Below, piece by piece: positions 5,329 through 28,535 of a DNA stretch of 64,000 nucleotides; positions within the stretch are counted from its first letter, which is position 1, and each line of letters starts with the position of its first letter. The translations under genes were made by a program, and so were the position numbers. The notes under the pieces were generated by a model. The model made no database searches. It was not told the DNA's origin and was given only the letters and a program-made list of their open reading frames with translations. This stretch comes from Chloroflexota bacterium (GTDB taxonomy: Bacteria; Chloroflexota; Anaerolineae; Anaerolineales; Villigracilaceae). The stretch covers positions 62,001 to 126,000 of the forward strand of contig JACRBL010000051.1 of assembly GCA_016234485.1 (NCBI GenBank). Reading direction: 5' to 3'.

Positions 5329-7092
5329 CTACGGCACAAAATACTCCACGATCAACACAGGCCGCACGGACGCGTTGAGATGATCTCCGCTGAAGAATTG
5401 GAGGGTGTCGCGCGCGAGGTCGTCGTTGTCGTCGAGGAAGAAGCGCAGGCGGAGTTGGGTGAGGCCCGTCCGGTTGAGTTTGGTGAGGCTGGGAAAAATG
5501 AACTTGAGGGAATACCACGAGTTGACCGGCGTCGGGTTAAACGTCCCGGCGACGCTTCCCCTGCTGGAGTGGAAGTCCACCGGCTCGAGGTCCGCGCTGG
5601 AACCGAAGAAGGGCGCGCCCAGGTCGGCTACGAGGCGGTTGAGCGTCAGGAAGGGATCGTCGCCGATGAATTTCTGTCGCTTGATTCGGAGCGTCACCGA
5701 AGTGACTTGGGCATCATCGGGCAGGGTGGACGTGTCGAACGAAAGGATGGAGCGATATTGGCGGTCGGTTTGATGATCGCCCACCGCGAGCACAAGTTGC
5801 GTCGCGTTGATCGAGCCGCCAATCCCCGCGTTTTCGCTGACTTCGAGAATGATTCCATCGTGTGCGCCAACAGAGGTATAGGTTGCCGTCAAGCGGGGCG
5901 CTTCGGCGAGGCGATAGAGGACGCCGTTGCCATAATCCAGAAGATAGAGTTCGCCCTGCTCGTCCTCGCCAAAGGATGAAATTAGAAAATGCGTGTCGGC
6001 CAACAAGCTCGTCACCCATTGATTGGATGCGTTCTGCTTCAATCCCCAAATCTTGCCGAGACAAAAATCGGCATAGAGATACACGCCAGCCAGGTCGGGG
6101 AAGTTGGAGCCGCGATACACGTAACCGCCCGTCACCGAGCAACCGTTCGAGTCGTTTTCGCCGTGATCGTAAACGGCCACGGGCGGGGCATAATTGGCCG
6201 GCGGCGTGCAGGTGATCGCGTAGTAACACAGGTTGCCTTCCATCACCCGCCAGCCATAATTCTGTCCGCCGCTCGCGCTCGCGAGTTGAAAGTCCACCTC
6301 TTCCTGTGCGTTCTGTCCAACGTCGCCGATGTACAGGTCGCCTGTGCCGCGGTCAAAGGAAAAGCGCCAGGGGTTGCGAAGCCCGTAAGCCCAGACCTCT
6401 TTTTTCACATTGGGATTGGGGTTGTTGAAATACGGGTTCGTGGACGGAATGGCATATCCGCTGGCGCCGCTCACATCCAGCCGCAAAATTTTTCCGAGCA
6501 GCGTGGTGCGATCCTGGCCGTTGTTAGCGGGGTCTCCGCCACTACCGCCATCGCCCACCCCCATGTAAAGATACCCATCGGGGCCGAAGGCGATCATCCC
6601 GCCGTTGTGATTGGTGAAAGTTTTGGGAACGCTCAACAAAACTTCGCCCGTGGCATTGGCAATATCGGGGTCAGCCGAAACGGTGTAACGCGCCAACGTC
6701 ACCGCGTAGGACGCGGCGGTGTAGGCGATGTAGAATCGGCCGTTCGTTTCATAGTTCGGGTCGAAGGCCAGGCCCAACAGTCCCTGCTCGCCGCCGTCCA
6801 GGGCCAGCGCCCCGCTCACGTCCAGGAAGGGAAGCGGGAGCAATATCCCATTTTTGTGGATGCGGATATGTCCCCCGCGTTGGACGATGAAAAGTCGGTT
6901 TGACGCGTCGCCGGCGTGAGTCAAAAATAAAGGATCGTCGAGCGCGCCCACCACCCATTCATATTTGATATTTCTCGGCATCGGCGCGGACGGGGTGGGG
7001 GCCGCGCGTCCATTGGGCGCCACCGCCGCGAGGATGGAAAGGACAACGAGGATGGTCATCCAGAAAGATGGTGATTTTAAACGACGTGACAT
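5329..7092 (-). CDS. Secreted PQQ-type glucose/sorbosone dehydrogenase-like protein with extra C-terminal beta domain
   Basis: This is a 587 aa exported protein. ATG 7092 follows AAAGGAG. A signal peptide covers residues 1-30 (WMTILVVLSILAAVAPNGRA). Residues about 45-385 form the six-bladed GSDH/Yli-type propeller: GGEQGLLGLAFDPNY, NHNGGMIAFGPDGYLYMGVG, EVWAYGLRNPWRFSFD and GDVGQNAQEEVD are the standard blocks, including the catalytic-type His in TNHNGG. Residues about 400-587 are a separate beta-sandwich resembling the DNRLRE surface-protein domain (SILSFDTSTLPDDAQVTSV). It likely oxidises a sugar or polyol outside the membrane; the substrate is not predictable. Confidence 0.82.
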   Translation of the reverse strand: MSRRLKSPSFWMTILVVLSILAAVAPNGRAAPTPSAPMPRNIKYEWVVGALDDPLFLTHAGDASNRLFIVQRGGHIRIHKNGILLPLPFLDVSGALALDGGEQGLLGLAFDPNYETNGRFYIAYTAASYAVTLARYTVSADPDIANATGEVLLSVPKTFTNHNGGMIAFGPDGYLYMGVGDGGSGGDPANNGQDRTTLLGKILRLDVSGASGYAIPSTNPYFNNPNPNVKKEVWAYGLRNPWRFSFDRGTGDLYIGDVGQNAQEEVDFQLASASGGQNYGWRVMEGNLCYYAITCTPPANYAPPVAVYDHGENDSNGCSVTGGYVYRGSNFPDLAGVYLYADFCLGKIWGLKQNASNQWVTSLLADTHFLISSFGEDEQGELYLLDYGNGVLYRLAEAPRLTATYTSVGAHDGIILEVSENAGIGGSINATQLVLAVGDHQTDRQYRSILSFDTSTLPDDAQVTSVTLRIKRQKFIGDDPFLTLNRLVADLGAPFFGSSADLEPVDFHSSRGSVAGTFNPTPVNSWYSLKFIFPSLTKLNRTGLTQLRLRFFLDDNDDLARDTLQFFSGDHLNASVRPVLIVEYFVP

Positions 7093-7168
7093 GATTTGCT
7101 CCTTTGCGCTTGTCTATAGTTATTGTACATTCCTTGCCTGGGTTTTATTACCCGCCAAAATTCCCCTC

Positions 7169-7197
7169 TTGACTCAATTAGCGCATTAGATTATTAT
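7169..7197 (+). promoter_or_regulatory. Sigma-70-type promoter of the small protein/ArsR operon
   Basis: TTGACT (7169-7174) and TATTAT (7192-7197) are separated by 17 bp. The predicted transcription start falls at the first of three direct repeats beginning at 7204. Confidence 0.7.
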
Positions 7198-7203
7198 CTA
7201 ATT

Positions 7204-7254
7204 AGACAAACGCCTAACGCAGACATCCGCCTAACATAGACATTTGCCTTTTAG
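7204..7254 (+). promoter_or_regulatory. Three 17-bp direct repeats, probable operator
   Basis: Three consecutive 17-base units read AGACAAACGCCTAACGC, AGACATCCGCCTAACAT and AGACATTTGCCTTTTAG. They share AGACA, and the second and first share CGCCTAAC. They begin directly downstream of the promoter -10 box, a position suited to repression, possibly by the ArsR-type regulator encoded downstream. Confidence 0.55.
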
Positions 7255-7268
7255 AGAAAGAGTCCAAA

Positions 7269-7517
7269 ATGTCCAGCCACCTGAAATGCAACCTGGCACA
7301 AGACCAAATAACCTATGCCTGCGCCGAAGAAGGTTACGGATCGGCTTCTGCTTCATCCGCGCCCAGCAACCGCGACCTCTTCACCCACCAGACCGGGCAA
7401 CTGCTTCTCGCCCTCGGCCACATGCTGATCAATGTGTCTGCCTTCAACGCGCACATCCAGCCATCCACCGGCAAGAGGCTGATCGCGCTCGGCAAAAAAT
7501 TATCGGCGCAGAAGTAG
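7269..7517 (+). CDS. Small helical protein of unknown function
   Basis: This 82 aa protein is not recognised. ATG 7269 lies about 65 bp after the promoter -10 box, with AGAAAGAG upstream as a weak ribosome site. The middle has the pattern TGQLLLALGHMLINV and the end RLIALGKKLSAQK. The second small protein encoded downstream ends in a related LGDWLIKLGYNLKS, so both seem to share an amphipathic LGxxLIxLG helix. It is the first gene of the unit with the ArsR-type regulator. Being non-enzymatic in appearance, it may be a membrane-associating or regulatory peptide; this is a guess. Confidence 0.5.
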   Translation: MSSHLKCNLAQDQITYACAEEGYGSASASSAPSNRDLFTHQTGQLLLALGHMLINVSAFNAHIQPSTGKRLIALGKKLSAQK

Positions 7518-7561
7518 CGCAAATACAACTTGTTTCTGCGAGTCGGGCGCACTTCCCGACG

Positions 7562-7596
7562 ACCCTGGCGCTGTGCGGCTTAAGCCGTACCAGGGC
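7562..7596. repeat. CCCTGG/CCAGGG hairpin between the two small genes
   Basis: The outer arms CCCTGG (7563-7568) and CCAGGG (7590-7595) enclose an inner GCGGCTTAAGCCGT stem. Similar CCCTGGC hairpins occur at 9127-9168 and 14841-14861. Confidence 0.5.
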
Positions 7597-7694
7597 AAGT
7601 GTCGGCGGAAGAACGTCGCCTCACAACAACAGGCCAAGTTATCTACACAGAAATAACCGCCTTGCTTTCAGGCAAATTTCGAAAGGAGAAACCC

Positions 7695-7907
7695 ATGTCT
7701 AAATTTTACGCACAGGCCTTCTATCGTTTGGCGATCGAAGACTACCGTGAGAAGTTGATGAACAGCCGCAGATTGCAGGCGTTCCGCGAGGCCGCGGCTC
7801 AAATTCCCCATCTTTGGGATAGGGTCGCCTTGCGTCTCGGCGATTGGCTGATCAAACTCGGATACAACTTAAAATCCCACTCCCTGCTTGCCAATAAACA
7901 CGCATGA
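7695..7907 (+). CDS. Small basic helical protein, translationally coupled to the ArsR-type regulator
   Basis: This 70 aa protein is unknown. ATG 7695 follows AAAGGAG at ideal spacing, so a longer upstream frame is rejected. Its stop overlaps the regulator start by four bases (ATGA), indicating coupled translation. The sequence is basic and helical (YRLAIEDYREKLMNSRRLQ) and ends in LGDWLIKLGYNLKS, related to the end of the small protein at 7269-7517. The coupling suggests a role with the regulator, for example as a modulator. Confidence 0.6.
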   Translation: MSKFYAQAFYRLAIEDYREKLMNSRRLQAFREAAAQIPHLWDRVALRLGDWLIKLGYNLKSHSLLANKHA

Positions 7908-9007
7908 GCCAAGCCAACGCCTCGCCCTCCATCGAATGGGATTTCGGCACGGCCTACGAGCTATTCGCCAGCCTGCACGTTTTGCATCACCCCGGCCATT
8001 TCGGGCTTCGTCCCTCCTGGGCGGCAGGCGTACGTTCACGCATCCCGCCTGCCGAACGAAAATTCATGGAGGAGATGTTTCCCATCCTCGGCGTGCCGCT
8101 CCAATGGCTCCACGATCTGCCCGCGCCCAAAGACGCCATCAGCGCGCTTTGGGCGCTAAAGCAGATTCCGCCCGCCCAGCGCATGATCCATCTTCAAAAA
8201 TTGGACAAGCCCGCCCACGAAGGCGCTACCGCGGAGGAGACGGCCAAATTCAAACAATTCCACGAGACGCTGTTGCGGATCACGTCCGAGCGCGCCTGGA
8301 AACCCGAAGACGTTGATTTTTTTGTGAAGATTTTCAGACACAAAAACGAGGGCGTCAAACGGGAGGCCATTGAACGCGCGCTCAGTTGGTGGAGTCGCCC
8401 CGAAGAGATGGGCGAGATCATGTTCTCCGCCCTGCAAGCCTACTACCAGGCTTTTTTTGAGGAGGAAGAAAAACGCGTCCTTCCCTACCTTCGGGCCGGA
8501 CTCGACCGCGCCCAGGCGCTGGCCACCCGCCTGCCGCTGAACGAGTTGTTCCTCGAACTTTCGCAGGGCGTGCAACTCGGCGATGAATTTATCGCCTCCA
8601 AATTTGTCTTCGCGCCCGCCTTCTGGACAACGCCGCTCATCTTCTTTGAAAAGCTGGACGCCGACACGCAGTTGATCGTCTTCGGGACGCGCCCCGCGGA
8701 TGTGTCCGCCGTCCCTGGCGAAACCATCCCCGACGGGCTGGTGCGTTCGCTGAAAGCGCTGGCGGACCCCACCCGTTTGAAGATCCTCTTCTATCTCTCG
8801 CGCGAGAGCCTCACCCCGTCTGAACTGGCGCGGAAACTGCAATTGCGCGCGCCGACCGTCATCCATCACTTGAACGATCTTCGTCTCGCGAGCCTGGTGG
8901 AACTTTCGATGGAACACGGCGAGAAGCGCTACGCCATCCGTCAGCAGGCGCTCGGTGCGACGTTCGATAATCTCTCGGCTTTTTTGCAAGGGAGTTCGGA
9001 AGAGTAA
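7904..9007 (+). CDS. ArsR-family transcriptional regulator with long N-terminal domain
   Basis: This 367 aa protein is predicted to be a DNA-binding regulator. Residues about 1-280 are a helical region of the DUF5937-like type often placed before an HTH in such regulators. Residues about 285-345 form the winged helix: LVRSLKALADPTRLKILFYL, then SELARKLQLRAPTVIHHLN as the recognition helix. It starts inside the preceding small gene (4-base overlap) and is followed by a hairpin-rich spacer and an MFS transporter. The 17-bp repeats at 7204-7254 are a plausible target for autoregulation. The ligand is unknown; no metal-binding cysteine motif is apparent. Confidence 0.8.
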   Translation: MSQANASPSIEWDFGTAYELFASLHVLHHPGHFGLRPSWAAGVRSRIPPAERKFMEEMFPILGVPLQWLHDLPAPKDAISALWALKQIPPAQRMIHLQKLDKPAHEGATAEETAKFKQFHETLLRITSERAWKPEDVDFFVKIFRHKNEGVKREAIERALSWWSRPEEMGEIMFSALQAYYQAFFEEEEKRVLPYLRAGLDRAQALATRLPLNELFLELSQGVQLGDEFIASKFVFAPAFWTTPLIFFEKLDADTQLIVFGTRPADVSAVPGETIPDGLVRSLKALADPTRLKILFYLSRESLTPSELARKLQLRAPTVIHHLNDLRLASLVELSMEHGEKRYAIRQQALGATFDNLSAFLQGSSEE

Positions 9008-20154: not shown

Positions 20155-22125
20155 TTAGGGCAGGCAACTGTCGCCGTAGTCGAAAAGTTCGATGGCGTAG
20201 AGGTCGGTGGCCGCGGTGGGGTCGAGCGCGAAGTTACAAAAGTCCGAGCGGGTCGCGGCGGTTTCGATGCGGTTGAAGAGCGGGATGGCAGGCAGGTCTT
20301 GCGCGAAGAGAGTCTGCGTCAGGCGGTAGTTATCCACGTAGGCCGATTCGTCGGGCGTGGATTGCCGCGCAAAGGCGCAGGCCGCGTCGAAGGTGGGATT
20401 CTGATATCCCGAAAGGTTTGTGCCAACCCAGTGATTCGCCTCCGTTGGAACTTCGCTGGCGGCAAAGCGCATACAGGCTGGCTGGAAATCGAGCGCGGCC
20501 ATGGCGTATTCGGCCAGGTCAAAATTGCGGCCAAAGAGCGGCCCCAGCGGCCCTTCGGCATAGAGTTCGAGTTGGGAGACGTGGACGAGTTCCACGCCGA
20601 TTCCGCATCCGCGCAGAGATTGGGCAAAGATTTCGGCGATCTGTCGGCGCTGGTTGGCGGATGAGGTCACGTAGGTGAGTTTCAGCTCGGTCGCCTGCGC
20701 CACGCGCGCAACGCCCTGGGCATGGCGCGGCGTGGATGGGTCGTTATCATGGTCGCGCCAGCCGATGTTATCGAGCATCTGCATGCCCTTACCGGGGTCA
20801 AACGGATACGCGGCCAAAGCGCTGGCATGGAGCGGATGACTCGACGCGACAAACGAATCGGGAACGGTCGCCAGGCCGAATAGCACGTTATCCACAATGG
20901 ACTGGCGATTGATGCAGTAGGCGATGGCCTGCCGTGTGCGCGGATCGCGGAAAAAGTCGGGGCGATCAATGACATTTGCGCCATCGTCGTAGCTGGAGTG
21001 GACAATGCCAAAGGTCAGCCATTCCATGGTGGGCGTCTGCCCGCTAAAGAAGCGCGCCTGCCCACGCGTGTCCATTTCGCGTAAGAGGCTCACCTGCGAA
21101 TCGAGCGAGACGGTGGAGTCGATCAAGTCGCAACGGCCCTCGATCAGGGCGGTCATGGCCGCTTCGGTGTCGGGCGTGATGCGGAAGATCAGCTCGCTGA
21201 ATTTCGGTAGTCCCTCCGCGGCGCGATAATAATAGGGATTCTTCACCAGGCGGAGCGTGTCGTCGTTCCACTCTTTGATCACGTACGGCCCATATCCCAT
21301 CGGCATGCGCGCCGAAAGGTCGGAGGTCAACAACTCGGCGGGCGTCAACTGCTCCCAAATGCGTTTGGGCAGGGGCATCCAAAAATTCGTGTTGTAGGTG
21401 GGGTCCACAAAGCCAGGCTTGCCCCACCATTGAACGGTCGCGTCGTCCGCGGCTTCGTAAGATTGGGTGCGGTCGAAAATATATTTCGAGCCGGGCGTAT
21501 CCTCATCTTTGGCGAGTTCATACGCGAAGACCGAATCATCCGCGGTGACGGGCGTGCCATCGGACCACAAAAGCCCGGGCTTCATCTTGAACTCGACGAA
21601 CATCTGATCCATCGAAAGCGGACTCTGTCCGTCGTAGGTGATGACGCAACTCCCGTCGCGGCATCCCGCGGGACGGACGCGGGATCCCAGTTCGAGGGAG
21701 ATGAGGTCGCCCGACGCGTCCACCACCTCGTCGCCGAGGGAGACCGCCAGCGGGCTGATCGTCGCTCCGCCCGCGCTCACGCTGGGGATTTGCTCGAGGA
21801 TGCCGGGCATGTATTCATAGTTGACGACATCGTAGGGAGCGTCATAGATCGCCGCCAGCACACTGCGCGCCGCGGGGTTCGGGACGCCGAGCGGATAAAG
21901 CGTGTTCGGCAGGTTCCCCAAGCACACGCTGAGGACGCGTCCCGGCGTGGGCGTCGGCGTGTAAGCGGGACCCGGCGTCGGCGTGTCGAGAGGCGATGGC
22001 GTTTCGGCGGGGGCGGCTGTCTCGCCTCCGTCCAGCAAGTCCACCAACTGGCAGGACGATAATAGGACGGCGGAACATATCATCAAAATAATTAATCGTT
22101 GCAAGAAGCGCTTCCTCGCGTGCAT
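20155..22125 (-). CDS. Peptide ABC transporter substrate-binding lipoprotein (normal domain order)
   Basis: This is a 656 aa SBP_bac_5 (OppA/DppA-type) receptor. The start ATG 22125 has AGGAG upstream. The lipoprotein signal ends at LLSSC near residue 25, followed by a Thr/Pro-rich linker. Domains appear in the usual order: GLLWSDGTPVTADDSVFAYE, YGPYVIKEWND, then DPRTRQAIAYCINRQSIVDN in the second half, ending in DLPAIPLFNRIE. It is the last gene of the opp unit, after oppF, but a strong hairpin with a T-tract (22139-22173) sits directly before its ribosome site. It likely supplies an alternative substrate to the same permease. Confidence 0.85.
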   Translation of the reverse strand: MHARKRFLQRLIILMICSAVLLSSCQLVDLLDGGETAAPAETPSPLDTPTPGPAYTPTPTPGRVLSVCLGNLPNTLYPLGVPNPAARSVLAAIYDAPYDVVNYEYMPGILEQIPSVSAGGATISPLAVSLGDEVVDASGDLISLELGSRVRPAGCRDGSCVITYDGQSPLSMDQMFVEFKMKPGLLWSDGTPVTADDSVFAYELAKDEDTPGSKYIFDRTQSYEAADDATVQWWGKPGFVDPTYNTNFWMPLPKRIWEQLTPAELLTSDLSARMPMGYGPYVIKEWNDDTLRLVKNPYYYRAAEGLPKFSELIFRITPDTEAAMTALIEGRCDLIDSTVSLDSQVSLLREMDTRGQARFFSGQTPTMEWLTFGIVHSSYDDGANVIDRPDFFRDPRTRQAIAYCINRQSIVDNVLFGLATVPDSFVASSHPLHASALAAYPFDPGKGMQMLDNIGWRDHDNDPSTPRHAQGVARVAQATELKLTYVTSSANQRRQIAEIFAQSLRGCGIGVELVHVSQLELYAEGPLGPLFGRNFDLAEYAMAALDFQPACMRFAASEVPTEANHWVGTNLSGYQNPTFDAACAFARQSTPDESAYVDNYRLTQTLFAQDLPAIPLFNRIETAATRSDFCNFALDPTAATDLYAIELFDYGDSCLP

Positions 22126-22201: not shown

Positions 22202-23194
22202 TTATTCCACCAGCCAGCAGGCCGTCCAGTGACCGGGGCGGGCTTCCTTGAATTCAGGTTCCTGTTGCGAACAAATGTCTTTCGCAATTGGGCAACGGGT
22301 GTGGAAGCGGCATCCCTTGGGCGGATTGAGCGGGCTCGGCACATCGCCTTTGAGGATGGTGCGGTCGCGCTTCACGTTGGGATGCGGGATCGGAATGGCC
22401 GACATGAGGGCTTTGGTGTAGGGATGCAACGGCTCGCGGAAGAGGTCTTCGCGGCTGGCGAGTTCCACCATCTTGCCGAGGTACATCACGCCTACGCGGT
22501 CGGAGATGTGTTCCACCACGCTCAGGTTGTGAGCGATGAAGAGGTAGGTGAGGCCGAACTCGCGCTGGAGGTCTTTCAGGATGTTAAGCACCTGCGATTG
22601 GATGGACACATCCAACGCGGAGACGGGTTCGTCGCAGACGATGAACTTGGGTTGCAGGGCCAGGGCGCGGGCGATGCCGATGCGCTGGCGCTGTCCGCCC
22701 GAAAATTCGTGCGGGTAGCGGCGGGCGTGGTATTCTTCGAGGCCCACTTTCTTGAGCATCGTGATGGCCACCTGCCAGCGTTCTTTGGGGTGACCGATTT
22801 TGTGAATTTGAAGGCCTTCCATGACCGATTCGCCAATGGGCATGCGGGGGTTCAACGAGGCATACGGATCCTGGAAGATGATCTGCATGTCGCGGCGCAG
22901 GCTCTTGAGAGAGTTGGGGCGCATGTGCGTGATATCTTCGCCGTTAAAGTTCACCTGGCCCGAGGTGGGTTCGATCAGGCGCAAAATGGAGCGCCCGACG
23001 GTGGTCTTGCCGCAACCCGATTCGCCCACGAGTCCGAGCGTCTCGCCGTTCTTGACGGTGAAGCTGACCTTGTCCACGGCTTGCACTTGCGCGACCACGC
23101 GCTGTAAAAGTCCGCCGCGCACGGGGAAGTATTTCACCAGGTCTTTGACCTCAAGCAGGTCTGATTTTTCGTTGGTTTGCATTTTTGGATTCAT
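22202..23194 (-). CDS. oppF: Oligopeptide ABC transporter ATP-binding protein OppF
   Basis: This is one of two ATPases powering peptide import, 330 aa. Walker A is GESGCGKTT near residue 60, followed by Q-loop [11 protein letters not shown], signature [18 protein letters not shown], Walker [13 protein letters not shown] and switch [11 protein letters not shown]. The C-terminal block [20 protein letters not shown] carries the cysteines typical of Opp/Dpp ATPases, which in homologues can bind an iron-sulfur cluster. It lies 11 bp after oppD. Confidence 0.92.
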
Positions 23195-23205
23195 GGCATC
23201 ACACC

Positions 23206-24252
23206 TTATTTCTTCGTGAATGAGCGGCCGTTCTTGAACGGCGCAGTGTGCTGCTCAGAATCGCTATAGAGCCAGCATCGAACCTTGTGGTTTTCAGAAA
23301 CAGTTTCAAGGGGAGGCCGATTGTCAGTGCAGGCGGTCAGGTTATGGTCAATGCGCGCCAAGCAACGCGGGGCAAATCGGCAACCTGGAGGCAGGTTCAC
23401 CAGATTGGGAACGGAGCCGGGGATCACGTCCAATTTTTCGCGCACTTCGCCAAGCACCGGCACCGAGCCGATCAGACCGACAGTGTAGGGGTGCATCGGT
23501 TTATCGAACAGGCTGGCGACGGGGGATTCTTCCACGATCTCGCCCGCGTACATGACGGCGACGCGGTCGGCCATTTCGGCGATCACGCCCAGGTCGTGGG
23601 TGATGAGGATGACGGCCGAGCCCATCTTGGTGCGCAGGTCGCGCATCAGGTCGAGGATCTGGGCTTGGATGGTCACGTCCAGCGCGGTGGTGGGTTCGTC
23701 GGCGATGAGTAGGTCAGGGACGCAGGCCAGCGCCATGGCGATCATCACGCGCTGGGCCATGCCGCCCGAAAGTTCATGCGGGAAGGATTCGGCGCGGCGT
23801 TCGGGTTCGGGGATGCCCACCAGTTTGAGCATCTCGATGGCGCGCTGTTTGCCGGCTTCCTTGCCGAAGTCCTGGTGGATGTTTAGAACTTCGGAGATCT
23901 GGCTACCGGCGCGGAAGACCGGGTTGAGCGCGGACTGGGGTTGCTGGAAGATCATGGAGACGCGATTGCCGCGCACCTTCATCATTTCCTGTTCGGTGGC
24001 TTTTACCAGGTCCTTGCCTTCAAAAAGGATCTCGCCCTCAAGAATTTTTCCGGGGACGCCGATCAGCCGCATGATCGAAAGGGAAGTGACGCTCTTGCCG
24101 CACCCCGATTCGCCCACGATGCCCAGCACTTCGCCGGGGTTGACGTAAAAGTCCACGCCGTCCACGGCTTTCACGACGCCATCTTCGGTGTAAAAGTAGG
24201 TCTTAAGGTTTTTGACTTCGAGCAAAGGTTGTTGTGTGGTTTCGTTGGACAC
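23206..24252 (-). CDS. oppD: Oligopeptide ABC transporter ATP-binding protein OppD
   Basis: This is the second ATPase of the peptide importer, 348 aa. GTG at 24252 is the start, with GGAG before it. Walker [19 protein letters not shown]-loop [12 protein letters not shown], signature [18 protein letters not shown], Walker [15 protein letters not shown] and switch [12 protein letters not shown] are all present. The C-terminal [21 protein letters not shown] block has the Opp-type cysteine set. It lies 13 bp after oppC in the same operon. Confidence 0.93.
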
Positions 24253-24265
24253 GGGCTTTCTCCAA

Positions 24266-25264
24266 TTAGAGTTTCAAGCGCGGGTCAAGCGCGTCGCGCA
24301 GGCCATCGCCAATATAGTTGAATGCCAGCGAGCAGATGAAGATCGGCAACCCAGGCACAAGCGGGAGGTACGGCCGGCTCAACATGAATTGTTGCGTGGC
24401 CGAGAGCATGTTGCCCCAGGTTGGGATCGGGTCTTGAATGCCGAAGCCCAGGAATGCCAGGGCCGCCTCCGCCACCACGTAACCAGCCAAGCCCAGCGAA
24501 GCATCCACGATGATGGGGGCCATGGCGTTGGGGATCATGTGACGCATGATAATCCACACGTTGGAAGCGCCGAGCGAACGGGCGGCTTCCACGAAGGTCT
24601 GCTCGCGCAGGGAAAGCACGGTGCCGCGCATGAGTTGGGCCGAGGAGAGCCAGCCAAAGCCCGCCAGCACAATCACGATGAGAACCGCGTTGCGGGCGGC
24701 GCGTGGTCCTAGCAGGAGGAAATCGCCGAGGAAATTTAATAGCGGTTCTGGTATTGGGATCAATTCCTCATTCTGCAATAACATCGCGGAGATGATGAGC
24801 AGAAGCGGCAGGGTGGGGATGGTGAGCATGAACTCGAGGAAGCGCATCAGCACCGCGTCCAACCAGCCGCCGTAAAACCCGGAGACCGCGCCGACGATGA
24901 TACCGAGCGTTTCAGAGATCAACACCGAAAGCAGGGCAACCGTGAGGGAGATGCGCCCGGCATAGATCAAGCGAGAGAAGTAGTCGCGGCCGATATTGTC
25001 GGTTCCCATATAGTGAACACGACCCGTCTCCGCATCCACCGTTCCCCAATCAACAAAGTACTTGCCGACGTTCACCTCGTCAAATTCAAATCTTGCAATG
25101 TAGGGAGCCAGCGCGGTGACCAGGAAGATGAAAATGATCAACCCCAGTGAAACCATCGCCAGTTTGTGACGGCGGAACCGCATCATCACCACCTGGAACG
25201 GGCTACGTTCCTCGATGGTGATGGCTTCCGCTTCCAGTTTAGCAACTTGAGTAGACGCTGTCAT
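24266..25264 (-). CDS. oppC: Oligopeptide ABC transporter permease OppC
   Basis: This is an inner-membrane subunit of the peptide importer, 332 aa. The N-terminal cytoplasmic tail precedes a first helix at about residues 36-55, then an extracytoplasmic loop (MGTDNIGRDYFSRLIYAGR, the conserved OppC block) and five more helices. The EAA coupling loop reads EAARSLGASNVWIIMRHMIPN. Its C-terminal part PLVPGLPIFICSLAFNYIGD is standard. It follows oppB by 17 bp. Confidence 0.92.
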   Translation of the reverse strand: MTASTQVAKLEAEAITIEERSPFQVVMMRFRRHKLAMVSLGLIIFIFLVTALAPYIARFEFDEVNVGKYFVDWGTVDAETGRVHYMGTDNIGRDYFSRLIYAGRISLTVALLSVLISETLGIIVGAVSGFYGGWLDAVLMRFLEFMLTIPTLPLLLIISAMLLQNEELIPIPEPLLNFLGDFLLLGPRAARNAVLIVIVLAGFGWLSSAQLMRGTVLSLREQTFVEAARSLGASNVWIIMRHMIPNAMAPIIVDASLGLAGYVVAEAALAFLGFGIQDPIPTWGNMLSATQQFMLSRPYLPLVPGLPIFICSLAFNYIGDGLRDALDPRLKL

Positions 25265-25281
25265 GAAATAATCCTTATGGA

Positions 25282-26481
25282 TTAGGATAGGCGGATGCGG
25301 GGATCCACAACCGTGTAGAGAATATCACGCAAGAGCGTGGCAATCACGGTAAGCACGGCGATGATGAAGAAGATCGCCATCGCCACCGGGTAGTCGTAAT
25401 CGCCGAGCGCGAGCAGGTACAGGCGTCCCATGCCCGGCCAGGCAAAGATACTTTCAGTGATGATGGCGCCGCTGAACAAGCCTGGCAAAGTAAACACCAC
25501 AATGGTCACAAATGGAATGAGCGCGTTGCGAAGGGCGTGTTTCAGGATGACGACCTTATCGCCCAATCCTTTTGCGCGCGCCGTGCGGATGTAATCCTGG
25601 CGCATCACTTCCAACATGCTGGCGCGGATGAAGCGGCTCCAGCCAGCCACGTTGACGATGGTCAACACGGCCACCGGCAGGATCAAGTGCAAGGCGCGGT
25701 CTGTGAATGAACCTGCGATTACTTCGCCCAACCCAGGCACGGTGTAATTGCGGACCGACTCGGATAGCCCTGCGGGAACGTAGAACCAACCCGCATCCTT
25801 TGGCAGGATGGAAAACAGCAGGATCATCACAATGCCGAAGAAGAAGGTCGGCATGGCGGATCCCATAAAAGCCAGAGTGGTAAAAATATAATCAAATGTA
25901 GAATACTGACGAACAGCGGAATAGATCCCCAACGGAATACCGATGAGCAATGAAAGCAGAGTTTGTATGCCGATCAATTGCAAGGTCTTGGGAAGGCGGC
26001 TGGCAATGAGATCCGAAACGGGACGATCACGAAGGATTCTCCACGACATGCCGAAATCGCCGCGGACCAAACCGTTGCTTGTACGTCGCCCCACCAAATC
26101 TTTCATATAAACGACTTCTTTGCAACCGACGACCACATTTTGATACTTGCCATTTTCATCTATAATTTCAGATTCGATCGGTTTGCGGCATCCCACCACA
26201 AGATCGGCAAAATACTCCTTACCGCCAATGACCACCGGACCGCGCGGCGTTCCCAACAGCCAGCGGGAGAATCTCACCCAAAGGTTGAGGTCGAGTTCGA
26301 AATACGCGCGAATACGGGCGATGTCATCTTCGGTGATTGTGGTGCGGCCGGTCTGTTGAATTTGACGCAAGCCCTGCAACGGACCACCCGGCGCAAAGTT
26401 CAAAAGGGCATAGGTTGCCACCGCTGATATGAACAGCACCAGGATCATCTGAAGAAATCTGCGGACTAAGTATGTGCTCAT
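25282..26481 (-). CDS. oppB: Oligopeptide ABC transporter permease OppB with an enlarged extracytoplasmic loop
   Basis: This is the partner permease of OppC, 399 aa, about 70-80 residues longer than usual. The N-terminal helix (YLVRRFLQMILVLFISAVAT) is followed by an enlarged loop, residues about 65-145, holding two cysteines (VVGCRKPIESE and VVGCKEVVYM) before the normal RGDFGMSWRILRDRPV block. Five helices follow with the EAA loop DYIRTARAKGLGDKVVILKHALRN. The loop faces the receptor and could contact one of the two lipoproteins. A strong hairpin (26598-26631) separates this gene from the first receptor gene. Confidence 0.9.
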   Translation of the reverse strand: MSTYLVRRFLQMILVLFISAVATYALLNFAPGGPLQGLRQIQQTGRTTITEDDIARIRAYFELDLNLWVRFSRWLLGTPRGPVVIGGKEYFADLVVGCRKPIESEIIDENGKYQNVVVGCKEVVYMKDLVGRRTSNGLVRGDFGMSWRILRDRPVSDLIASRLPKTLQLIGIQTLLSLLIGIPLGIYSAVRQYSTFDYIFTTLAFMGSAMPTFFFGIVMILLFSILPKDAGWFYVPAGLSESVRNYTVPGLGEVIAGSFTDRALHLILPVAVLTIVNVAGWSRFIRASMLEVMRQDYIRTARAKGLGDKVVILKHALRNALIPFVTIVVFTLPGLFSGAIITESIFAWPGMGRLYLLALGDYDYPVAMAIFFIIAVLTVIATLLRDILYTVVDPRIRLS

Positions 26482-26651: not shown

Positions 26652-28535
26652 CTAGCGGATGAACAGGGAGATGTCGATGTGCTCCCAGGTGGCGCTCGGG
26701 TTGATGAGGGTCTTGATCTTGCCCTCAGTCTCGGCGGCCACAAGGGCCTCGCTCAGACCGACCAGGGTGGTCGAATCGAGGATGTCAATATCGCCGTTGA
26801 TGAGCAGGGCTTCCGCGCTCTCGGCGGTAATGAATTGGATGATGATGTTCGGGGTCTTGGGAGCGCCGCCAACCCAGTGTTCGTTCGCAGCGAAGACCAT
26901 CTTCTCGCCCTTAACCCATTCGACCAACTTGTAGGGGCCATAGGAGAGCGGGGTCTCGGCAACCAGGGGGTTGGTCGCCCAGTCAGCCGCGGGAACGGTA
27001 CCCAACACGTGAGCGGGGTAGATCGGCCACACGGGGATGAAGTATAGCGGGTCCTGAACGCCAGGAATCCAGGTCTGGACATAACCAACGCCATCAGCAA
27101 GGAATTCAGCGCTGGCGGTCTTTTCGCAGGTGATGAAGGAGGTCGCGCCGGAGGCGGGATCGCAGGCAATGTTCTTGCCCAGCTCGAGGTCCGCGCTGGA
27201 GACGGGCGTGCCATCTTCCCAGGTCAGGCCATCAATGAGCTCGAACTTGGAGACCAACTGCTTCATCATGACAGTGCCACCGGTGAATTCAACTTCTTCG
27301 CCGGCCGCGTTCTTAACCTTGACGCCCGCAGCGAGTGCGACAACTTCGCCAGCGGCATCCACAACCATGTCGCCTTCTTTGACTTCAACGTCATTGTTGG
27401 TGGTGCCACCGTTTTCGAGGGTGGGCAATTGCTTGACCAACACGGCCTGGAAATCGTAGTTGAGGCTCGTGGTCTGCAGAGGGCGAATGAAGGTGTAGGC
27501 AAGGTTCGCCACGAAGGCATCTTCAACGAGGGTGAAGAGCGAAGCGGGTTCCTGGGTGAAGCCAACAACGATGGTGTCGCTGCCTTCAACAGCCCAATCG
27601 GCTACATTGTAGTTGTAATAGGATTCGCCGGGCAGGGGGGCGAAGCCGGTCAAAGCCGCATTGTACGCGAAGGTATCGGTGCGGTTGAACAGCGGAATGG
27701 ACGGGACGTCCTTGGTGAATTCAGCCTGGGTAACCGTGTAAGCGGCAATGCGCTCGTCTTTGACGAGGGTGTTGTTCGCAAGCTTGATGTTCGAGCTGGC
27801 GGCTTCGTTACACCAACCCATGGCGTTCTGACCTTCCCAGCCGTTGTTGGGGTGGGGGATCTGATCGCAGGCATAGAGGGTCTGGCCACCGGGATCGGCC
27901 TGACCAACCCAGGCAAACGCGCCCAGTTCATAGTCGCGGCGGGCGATACCAGTGGTGTCGCCGAACCACCAGGAGGCGGGGGCGTGCAAGCGGACGACGC
28001 GGACACCGCAGTCGGCCATCTGGGCTTCCCAGATCGCGGCCCAGGTCTGGCGGAAGGCGGCGGTGGTGGTCGTGAACTTCAGGGAGAGTTCGTCGCCGTT
28101 GGCGTTGGTGCGGAAATTCGCGCCTTCAGCCAGGGTCCAGCCGGCCTCATCGAGGAGGGCCGCGCCCTTGGCGGGGTCAAAGGGGTAGATGGTGATGTTC
28201 GCATCGCCAGCATAGGCCCAGTGGCTAGTGGGGATGAAGGTGTTCATCACCAGGCCGGCGCGGGCTTCTTCGCTGATCAGCGGGTAGACCGAGGCGAGCA
28301 GGTCCGATTTGTTGGTGCAGTAGGAAAGGGCCTGGCGGACGCGCAGATCGCCGAGGATGGGGTGAGGCGTGCTGAAGGCTTCGCGATCTTTCTCAACGAT
28401 CACGGTTTCAGTCACTTTGACTTCCACGGTCTCAACGATGGTAGCGGGGGTCGCCGCGGGGCCGCCGCAGGCGGCGAGTACCATGCTGGCGAGCACGACG
28501 AGGCTCAAGACCAGCATCAAACGATTCTTAGACAT
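26652..28535 (-). CDS. Peptide-binding lipoprotein, circularly permuted SBP_bac_5 fold
   Basis: This is the receptor of the adjacent opp system, 627 aa. ATG 28535 follows GGAGGAG and opens a lipoprotein signal with lipobox LAAC (Cys 23). The halves are swapped relative to all usual OppA-type receptors. Residues 50-314 are what normally forms the second half (STPHPILGDLRVRQALSYCT near 55-74; SIPLFNRTDTFAYN near 279-292; the normal C-terminal end YNYNVADW at 307-314). After the linker AVEG, residues 319-627 are what normally begins the mature protein (TIVVGFTQEPASLF, GLTWEDGTPVSSADLELG at 436-453, LSYGPYKLVEWVKGEKMVF), ending at WEHIDISLFIR, where the usual protein continues into the VRQA block. 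The frame is uninterrupted. Confidence 0.85.
   Translation of the reverse strand: MSKNRLMLVLSLVVLASMVLAACGGPAATPATIVETVEVKVTETVIVEKDREAFSTPHPILGDLRVRQALSYCTNKSDLLASVYPLISEEARAGLVMNTFIPTSHWAYAGDANITIYPFDPAKGAALLDEAGWTLAEGANFRTNANGDELSLKFTTTTAAFRQTWAAIWEAQMADCGVRVVRLHAPASWWFGDTTGIARRDYELGAFAWVGQADPGGQTLYACDQIPHPNNGWEGQNAMGWCNEAASSNIKLANNTLVKDERIAAYTVTQAEFTKDVPSIPLFNRTDTFAYNAALTGFAPLPGESYYNYNVADWAVEGSDTIVVGFTQEPASLFTLVEDAFVANLAYTFIRPLQTTSLNYDFQAVLVKQLPTLENGGTTNNDVEVKEGDMVVDAAGEVVALAAGVKVKNAAGEEVEFTGGTVMMKQLVSKFELIDGLTWEDGTPVSSADLELGKNIACDPASGATSFITCEKTASAEFLADGVGYVQTWIPGVQDPLYFIPVWPIYPAHVLGTVPAADWATNPLVAETPLSYGPYKLVEWVKGEKMVFAANEHWVGGAPKTPNIIIQFITAESAEALLINGDIDILDSTTLVGLSEALVAAETEGKIKTLINPSATWEHIDISLFIR

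Follow-up and report, generated by a model that had tools for sequence, protein, structure and literature searches.

Can the two halves of an ABC transporter receptor trade places along the chain and leave a working protein? The question is raised by an open reading frame in a window of 64,000 nucleotides (the whole stretch of DNA that was analysed) from the genome of a Chloroflexota bacterium. The frame occupies 28535 to 26652 of the minus strand, stop codon included, the plus-strand frame being interrupted by a stop. It encodes a permuted SBP_bac_5-type lipoprotein of 627 amino acids, identified from the reading frame and from Pfam. The first-pass annotation had proposed that its sequence blocks stand in the reverse of the OppA/DppA-type order, and that the gene is functional.

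Order of the blocks and the operon

The Pfam profile PF00496 (SBP_bac_5) matches the protein with 129.2 bits, for a cut-off of 32.4, in two stretches: profile positions 206-358 come first along the chain, and positions 18-179 second. The two other SBP_bac_5 receptors within the window yield a single Pfam stretch apiece, in line with the ordinary order ascribed to them. Of seven NCBIfam models, six align by their C-terminal parts near the beginning of the chain, with the best stretch within residues 52-299, and the seventh places an N-terminal part at residues 525-585. Compared with P0002, a receptor of the same window, the two halves match with E-values of 1e-29 and 9e-26, in swapped order.

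A rotation test compares the global alignment score of the protein as is, under its best rotation, and as the best of 20 shuffles. P0005, the nearest unpermuted relative, gives 597 without rotation, 887 after rotation at residue 314, and 24 for the shuffles; the corresponding scores are 275, 504 and 20 against P0002, and 177, 265 and 17 against P0003. The reversed order thus rests both on the two reversed Pfam stretches and on the gain from rotation. Judged by homology, the protein is a member of cluster C, or SBP_bac_5, without the normal linear order from N- to C-terminus; the swapped halves account for the two broken family-search matches reported in such genes.

All parts of the gene, and the transporter and receptor genes downstream, lie on the minus strand. 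The signal peptide (28467..28535) ends in a lipobox L-A-A-C at residues 20-23, with Cys 23; an export signal is present as far as inspection can tell. It is followed by a low-complexity tether, residues 24-53 (28377..28466), most of which has low pLDDT. Block A, residues 54-314 (27594..28376), corresponds to the normal second half, that is, lobe 2 and the normal C-terminal strands, and carries the motifs VRQA at 66 and IPLFNRTDTF at 280. After the junction AVEG, residues 315-318 (27582..27593), block B, residues 319-627 (26655..27581), corresponds to the normal first half: it carries TIVVGFTQEP at 321, WEDG at 439 and SYGPYK at 531, and ends at TWEHIDISLFIR, with WEHIDISLFIR at 617-627. The motif positions given earlier all agree with the protein.

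Upstream of the gene lies a divergent MscL gene. Downstream come, in order, an OppB-type permease (25282..26481, BPD_transp_1), an OppC-type permease (24266..25264, BPD_transp_1 and OppC_N), an OppD-type ATPase (23206..24252) and an OppF-type ATPase (22202..23194), both with ABC_tran and oligo_HPY, and finally another SBP_bac_5 receptor (20155..22125), in normal block order and with one Pfam stretch. The linkage of the permuted gene to oppBCDF-type transporter genes is supported both by the Pfam domains of its neighbours and by locus comparison: among 79 permuted frames, 43 have at least 1500 nucleotides downstream, and in these the next gene is OppB in 37 loci and another gene in 6.

Spread and ancestry of the permuted order

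The window belongs to a draft genome of 68 contigs, and a faulty assembly or binning could in principle swap two halves of a gene. However, a further copy in this genome (contig C52, 49% identical) is permuted in the same way, and the order recurs in many other assemblies, including genomes with matches that consist of one contig (G014, G382, G069, G261, G529, G543 and G571). Since independent genomes show the same order, we regard an artefact as virtually excluded.

A scan of named genomes returned 31 loci, 29 of them in Chloroflexota, and the order is permuted in all 29; Bellilinea caldifistulae GOMI-1 is among these, with its 5' end lost at a contig edge. The remaining two loci belong to an actinobacterium and a member of the Rhizobiaceae, and their matches cover no more than part of block B. 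In a sample of the window's class, 58 of 396 genomes have a match at E 1e-60 or better, and by our own count of rows 49 of the 396 match end to end across both blocks, two of them (G192 and G080) with one internal stop each. The other nine (G060, G066, G070, G112, G172, G209, G241, G273 and G384) comprise fragments, an unpermuted relative (G172) and a protein limited to lobe 2 (G209). We considered G066 as a split intermediate, but the contigs that carry its matches measure about 3 kb, and the matches, which extend to the contig ends, are uninformative. A sample of the phylum gives 43 matches in 400 genomes; 29 are outside the class, all with family codes f82 and f118, and 28 of these span both blocks end to end. 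The class and phylum samples overlap, and the named scan may share genomes with both. Absence elsewhere is only weakly tested, the named scan finding close relatives only; a plasmid collection held no match to the permuted receptor at E 1e-20.

Whether permuted homologues form a clade was one of the checks proposed earlier. In a tree with the blocks reordered, 41 permuted rows do form one clade with SH-aLRT support of 100, and its neighbour is an unpermuted pair, L137 and L171, with support 99; this is a quick tree, without bootstrap and rooted at midpoint. That the permuted receptors are one clade and not a single gene, with members inside and outside the window's class, is well supported by these sequence comparisons.

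Did this clade arise from one gene, or from two? The likely route would be a tandem duplication of one receptor gene, followed by an in-frame fusion of the copies and the loss of the outer parts, the signal and tether being retained from the first copy. There is also the possibility of a chimera, in which block A of a receptor similar to L137 was fused with block B of a neighbour similar to P0002. The best normal BLAST match of the A blocks is L137 in 41 out of 41 cases, and that of the 41 B blocks is mixed: L025 for 22, L185 for 7, L173 for 6, L137 for 3, L171 for 2 and L177 for 1, so that the pair accounts for only 5. Moreover, a hairpin in block B, at residues 382-422, is common to the P0002-like receptors and missing in L137 and L171; under an AU test, a tree that places B with the 27 normal rows bearing the hairpin is not rejected (p 0.17); and many loci have a normal receptor gene in the vicinity of the permuted one. 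However, trees of each block tell the same story: L137 and L171 are joined to the permuted rows at 100/97 with block A, and remain their sister with block B alone, at 99/90 with the hairpin kept and at 100/100 with the hairpin removed, a label read from a re-rooted tree. Because other normal rows carry shorter versions of the hairpin, our preferred reading is that the hairpin was putatively lost in the L137/L171 pair. A chimera, or an exchange with a neighbouring receptor gene, remains possible, though we hold the fusion of two different receptors to be unlikely; under the single-gene and chimera histories alike, the product is a permuted receptor.

Fold, junction and function

Where was the chain joined, and where was it cut? 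The four residues AVEG are indeed found where they had been reported, but their reading as a linker calls for correction: because the nearest unpermuted relative ends with W-E-K-G-stop, we read them as the old C-terminal tail. This relative, P0005 (in L137), is moreover continuous across the cut, with TWEHMDFN..APHPLLGDKTVRQA, and ends with WEKG-stop; therefore W-AVEG-SDTIVVGF appears to lead from the old C-terminus to the old N-terminus with almost nothing between, and the junction would be close to seamless. In general terms, the ends that were joined would be the former C-terminus (W-x-x-x-G) and the start of the former mature protein (DTIVxGF). The cut would lie at the crossover where the chain passes from lobe 1 to lobe 2, with TWEHID on one side and TPHPILGD..VRQA on the other. 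Among 39 distinct homologues with coverage of at least 85%, whose mean column identity is 63%, W314 and G318 are invariant, and the final stretch, counted from the Trp of WEHI, measures 11 residues in 38 homologues and 12 in the last.

The position of the cut is inferred by homology to known lobes. The best match among PDB sequences is 2d5w, from Thermus; residues 264-495 of DppA and 322-588 of 2d5w align to block A, and in the best 60 of 81 PDB matches the best stretch always falls within the normal half of the chain. In YejA, a cluster C protein of ordinary order, lobe 1 comprises residues 1-286 and 540-579 and lobe 2 comprises 287-539, the hinge segments being 282-287 and 540-542; in related structures the N- and C-termini lie near each other (PMC10924461). 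The cut would then lie at the first lobe crossover, leaving each lobe continuous: lobe 2 would come first, beside the lipid tether, and lobe 1 after it in one piece. By the same mapping we infer that one of the two crossovers is gone and that the anchor now sits near the hinge, on the side of lobe 2; ligand binding would still take place between the lobes, as in an ordinary receptor.

Structure prediction had been proposed as a way to distinguish one closed fold from two incomplete lobes. The AlphaFold2 model from the alignment of 39 rows is a confident single chain (mean pLDDT 85.4, pTM 0.81), with reservations for its weak parts, the tether and mature residues 161-220, inside block A. A sequential Foldseek search returns cluster C structures, with E from 2e-11 and TMq of 0.26-0.35 over 228-333 columns among the 50 matches listed. 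The swapped order is well supported by the sequence comparisons; that the two-lobed fold is retained is inferred from the model and from these partial sequential matches, without a permutation-aware superposition.

The gene might still be what is left of a duplication, decayed or without function, a reading to which the presence of lobe-2-only derivatives in some genomes lends some weight. However, the frame is intact, the lipobox is present, the operon and the sequence are conserved, and in nine homologue comparisons dN/dS is 0.10-0.28 for block A and 0.13-0.26 for block B, well below 1 in both halves, which shows purifying selection. A window of 21 codons at the junction is less constrained, with 0.11-0.50 and two undefined values. 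The dN/dS values rule out a pseudogene, and we consider a remnant very improbable; together with the frequency of OppB as the next gene, they are indirect signs of function, in keeping with the earlier argument from the lead position in the operon and the intact frame.

A folded protein need not be a receptor: it could serve the transporter as a scaffold or a sensor, leaving uptake to the normal receptor P0002. The operon does encode two receptors, and the ligand-binding Asp of DppA is not retained. In DppA, this residue, D408, anchors the amino end of the peptide; among 39 homologues the aligned position is Gln in 33, and Asp and Glu in 3 each. Against a sensor or scaffold, the A, W, D, P and last G of the motif A-W-V-G-Q-A-D-P-G-G are invariant in all 39, and it is the permuted gene that leads, ahead of oppB. 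We judge this alternative improbable, if less so than the remnant, and consider it highly probable that the gene encodes a functional, circularly permuted cluster C lipoprotein serving the downstream oppBCDF, the ligand and the transport role being inferred. As for the label of peptide-binding lipoprotein, the family and the lipobox are as described; the peptide-binding part is weakened because the D408 position is mostly Gln. In the absence of binding data, the ligand may be no plain peptide.

Other rearrangements, and known permuted receptors

A second SBP_bac_5 receptor of the same genome, P0004 (contig C18, L014:6188-7975), is permuted at a different point, which we call type II, the permutation described above being type I. 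Its profile order is 63-365 first and 3-54 last, about 120 residues having moved. Type II order is found in 30 out of 30 loci examined, and 91 of 199 class-sample genomes match at E 1e-60. The type II model (pLDDT 87.1, pTM 0.85) reaches TMq 0.62 and E 3e-28 in Foldseek, in contrast to the type I model. Though alike in Pfam family and in being permuted, the two types are not taken as one event: their cut points differ, and a tree, albeit with only two type II rows left after thinning, places them far apart.

The open frame of type II exceeds 770 amino acids in 10 of the 30 loci. Three long frames were scanned, and in all three the permuted domain stands behind another receptor domain: SBP_bac_3 at L113:1495-3960 and L127:274-3066, and Peripla_BP_6 at L118:1477-3810; one of the three also has a haem-binding-like stretch. 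Separately, the plus strand of L144 carries at 5604-8477 a frame of 958 amino acids whose N-terminal part resembles, by eye, a phosphonate receptor, with an apparent normal-order SBP_bac_5 receptor behind it; a diverged permuted receptor adjoins this frame.

Three proteins have block A without block B, in one copy (L141:4431-5675 and L136:4652-6247) or in two tandem copies (L135:4249-6555), and in each of them the WEHIDFNL strand still follows block A. Their C-terminal region, which has no Pfam name, shares homology with an extension at the C-terminus of L138, a permuted protein, with 30-32% identity and E 6e-15 or better. In the block A tree, the four copies have L138 as their neighbour (99/96) and lie within the permuted clade. 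Signal peptides are seen by inspection in L136 and L135; the open frame of L141 has no clear one. Because these proteins are nested in the clade and have one or two copies, it seems that lobe 2, having become continuous, moves as one module. It is tempting to conjecture, and we do so only tentatively, that a cut at the lobe crossover turned a receptor with one split lobe into two continuous modules and so opened the way to lobe loss and tandem copying; that the lobe-2-only descendants, with one or two copies and an extra C-terminal domain, are new single-lobe binding or surface proteins; and that the phylum has rewired this fold at least twice.

How do these receptors compare with known ones? 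With the cluster C proteins OppA, DppA, NikA and AppA they share homologous halves, a lipobox and an oppBCDF-type operon, but their halves are reversed and, by inference, they are anchored from the lobe 2 side. Descriptions of large two-lobed receptors that are permuted by nature are, to our knowledge, rare. The segment order is also swapped between the related receptors OpuAC and ProX, which resemble the present case in this respect but belong to another cluster and bind small substrates. Among titles and abstract starts of open-licence papers we found no permuted cluster C receptor, which agrees with the earlier statement that none was known in this family; the precedent is in cluster B. Tp0684, or TpMglB-2, of Treponema is a naturally permuted receptor for which the name Type Ic / Cluster Bc was proposed (PMC4990184). 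It is an ABC importer receptor with a lipid tether and permuted relatives in other species, all of which it has in common with the receptor studied here, but it is a Type I, cluster B glucose receptor of another fold class, and its permutation adds a crossover where that of SBP_bac_5 is inferred to remove one. At a Pfam E-value of 0.001, the permuted protein has no Type I or cluster B domain, only SBP_bac_5.

The swap is thus no error: a permuted family spread across many Chloroflexota amounts to a natural experiment in protein rewiring. Living genomes hold an ordered series: an unpermuted sister, a permuted clade, a form with an added domain, and single-lobe and double-lobe forms. This series offers a direct test of the effects of chain order and anchor point on an ABC receptor. 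Permutation for biosensors is usually engineered, and the permuted receptors are natural scaffolds for them. If the conjecture on the lobe crossover is true, the permutation would have opened a path, to lobe loss and tandem copying, that is closed to receptors in normal order.
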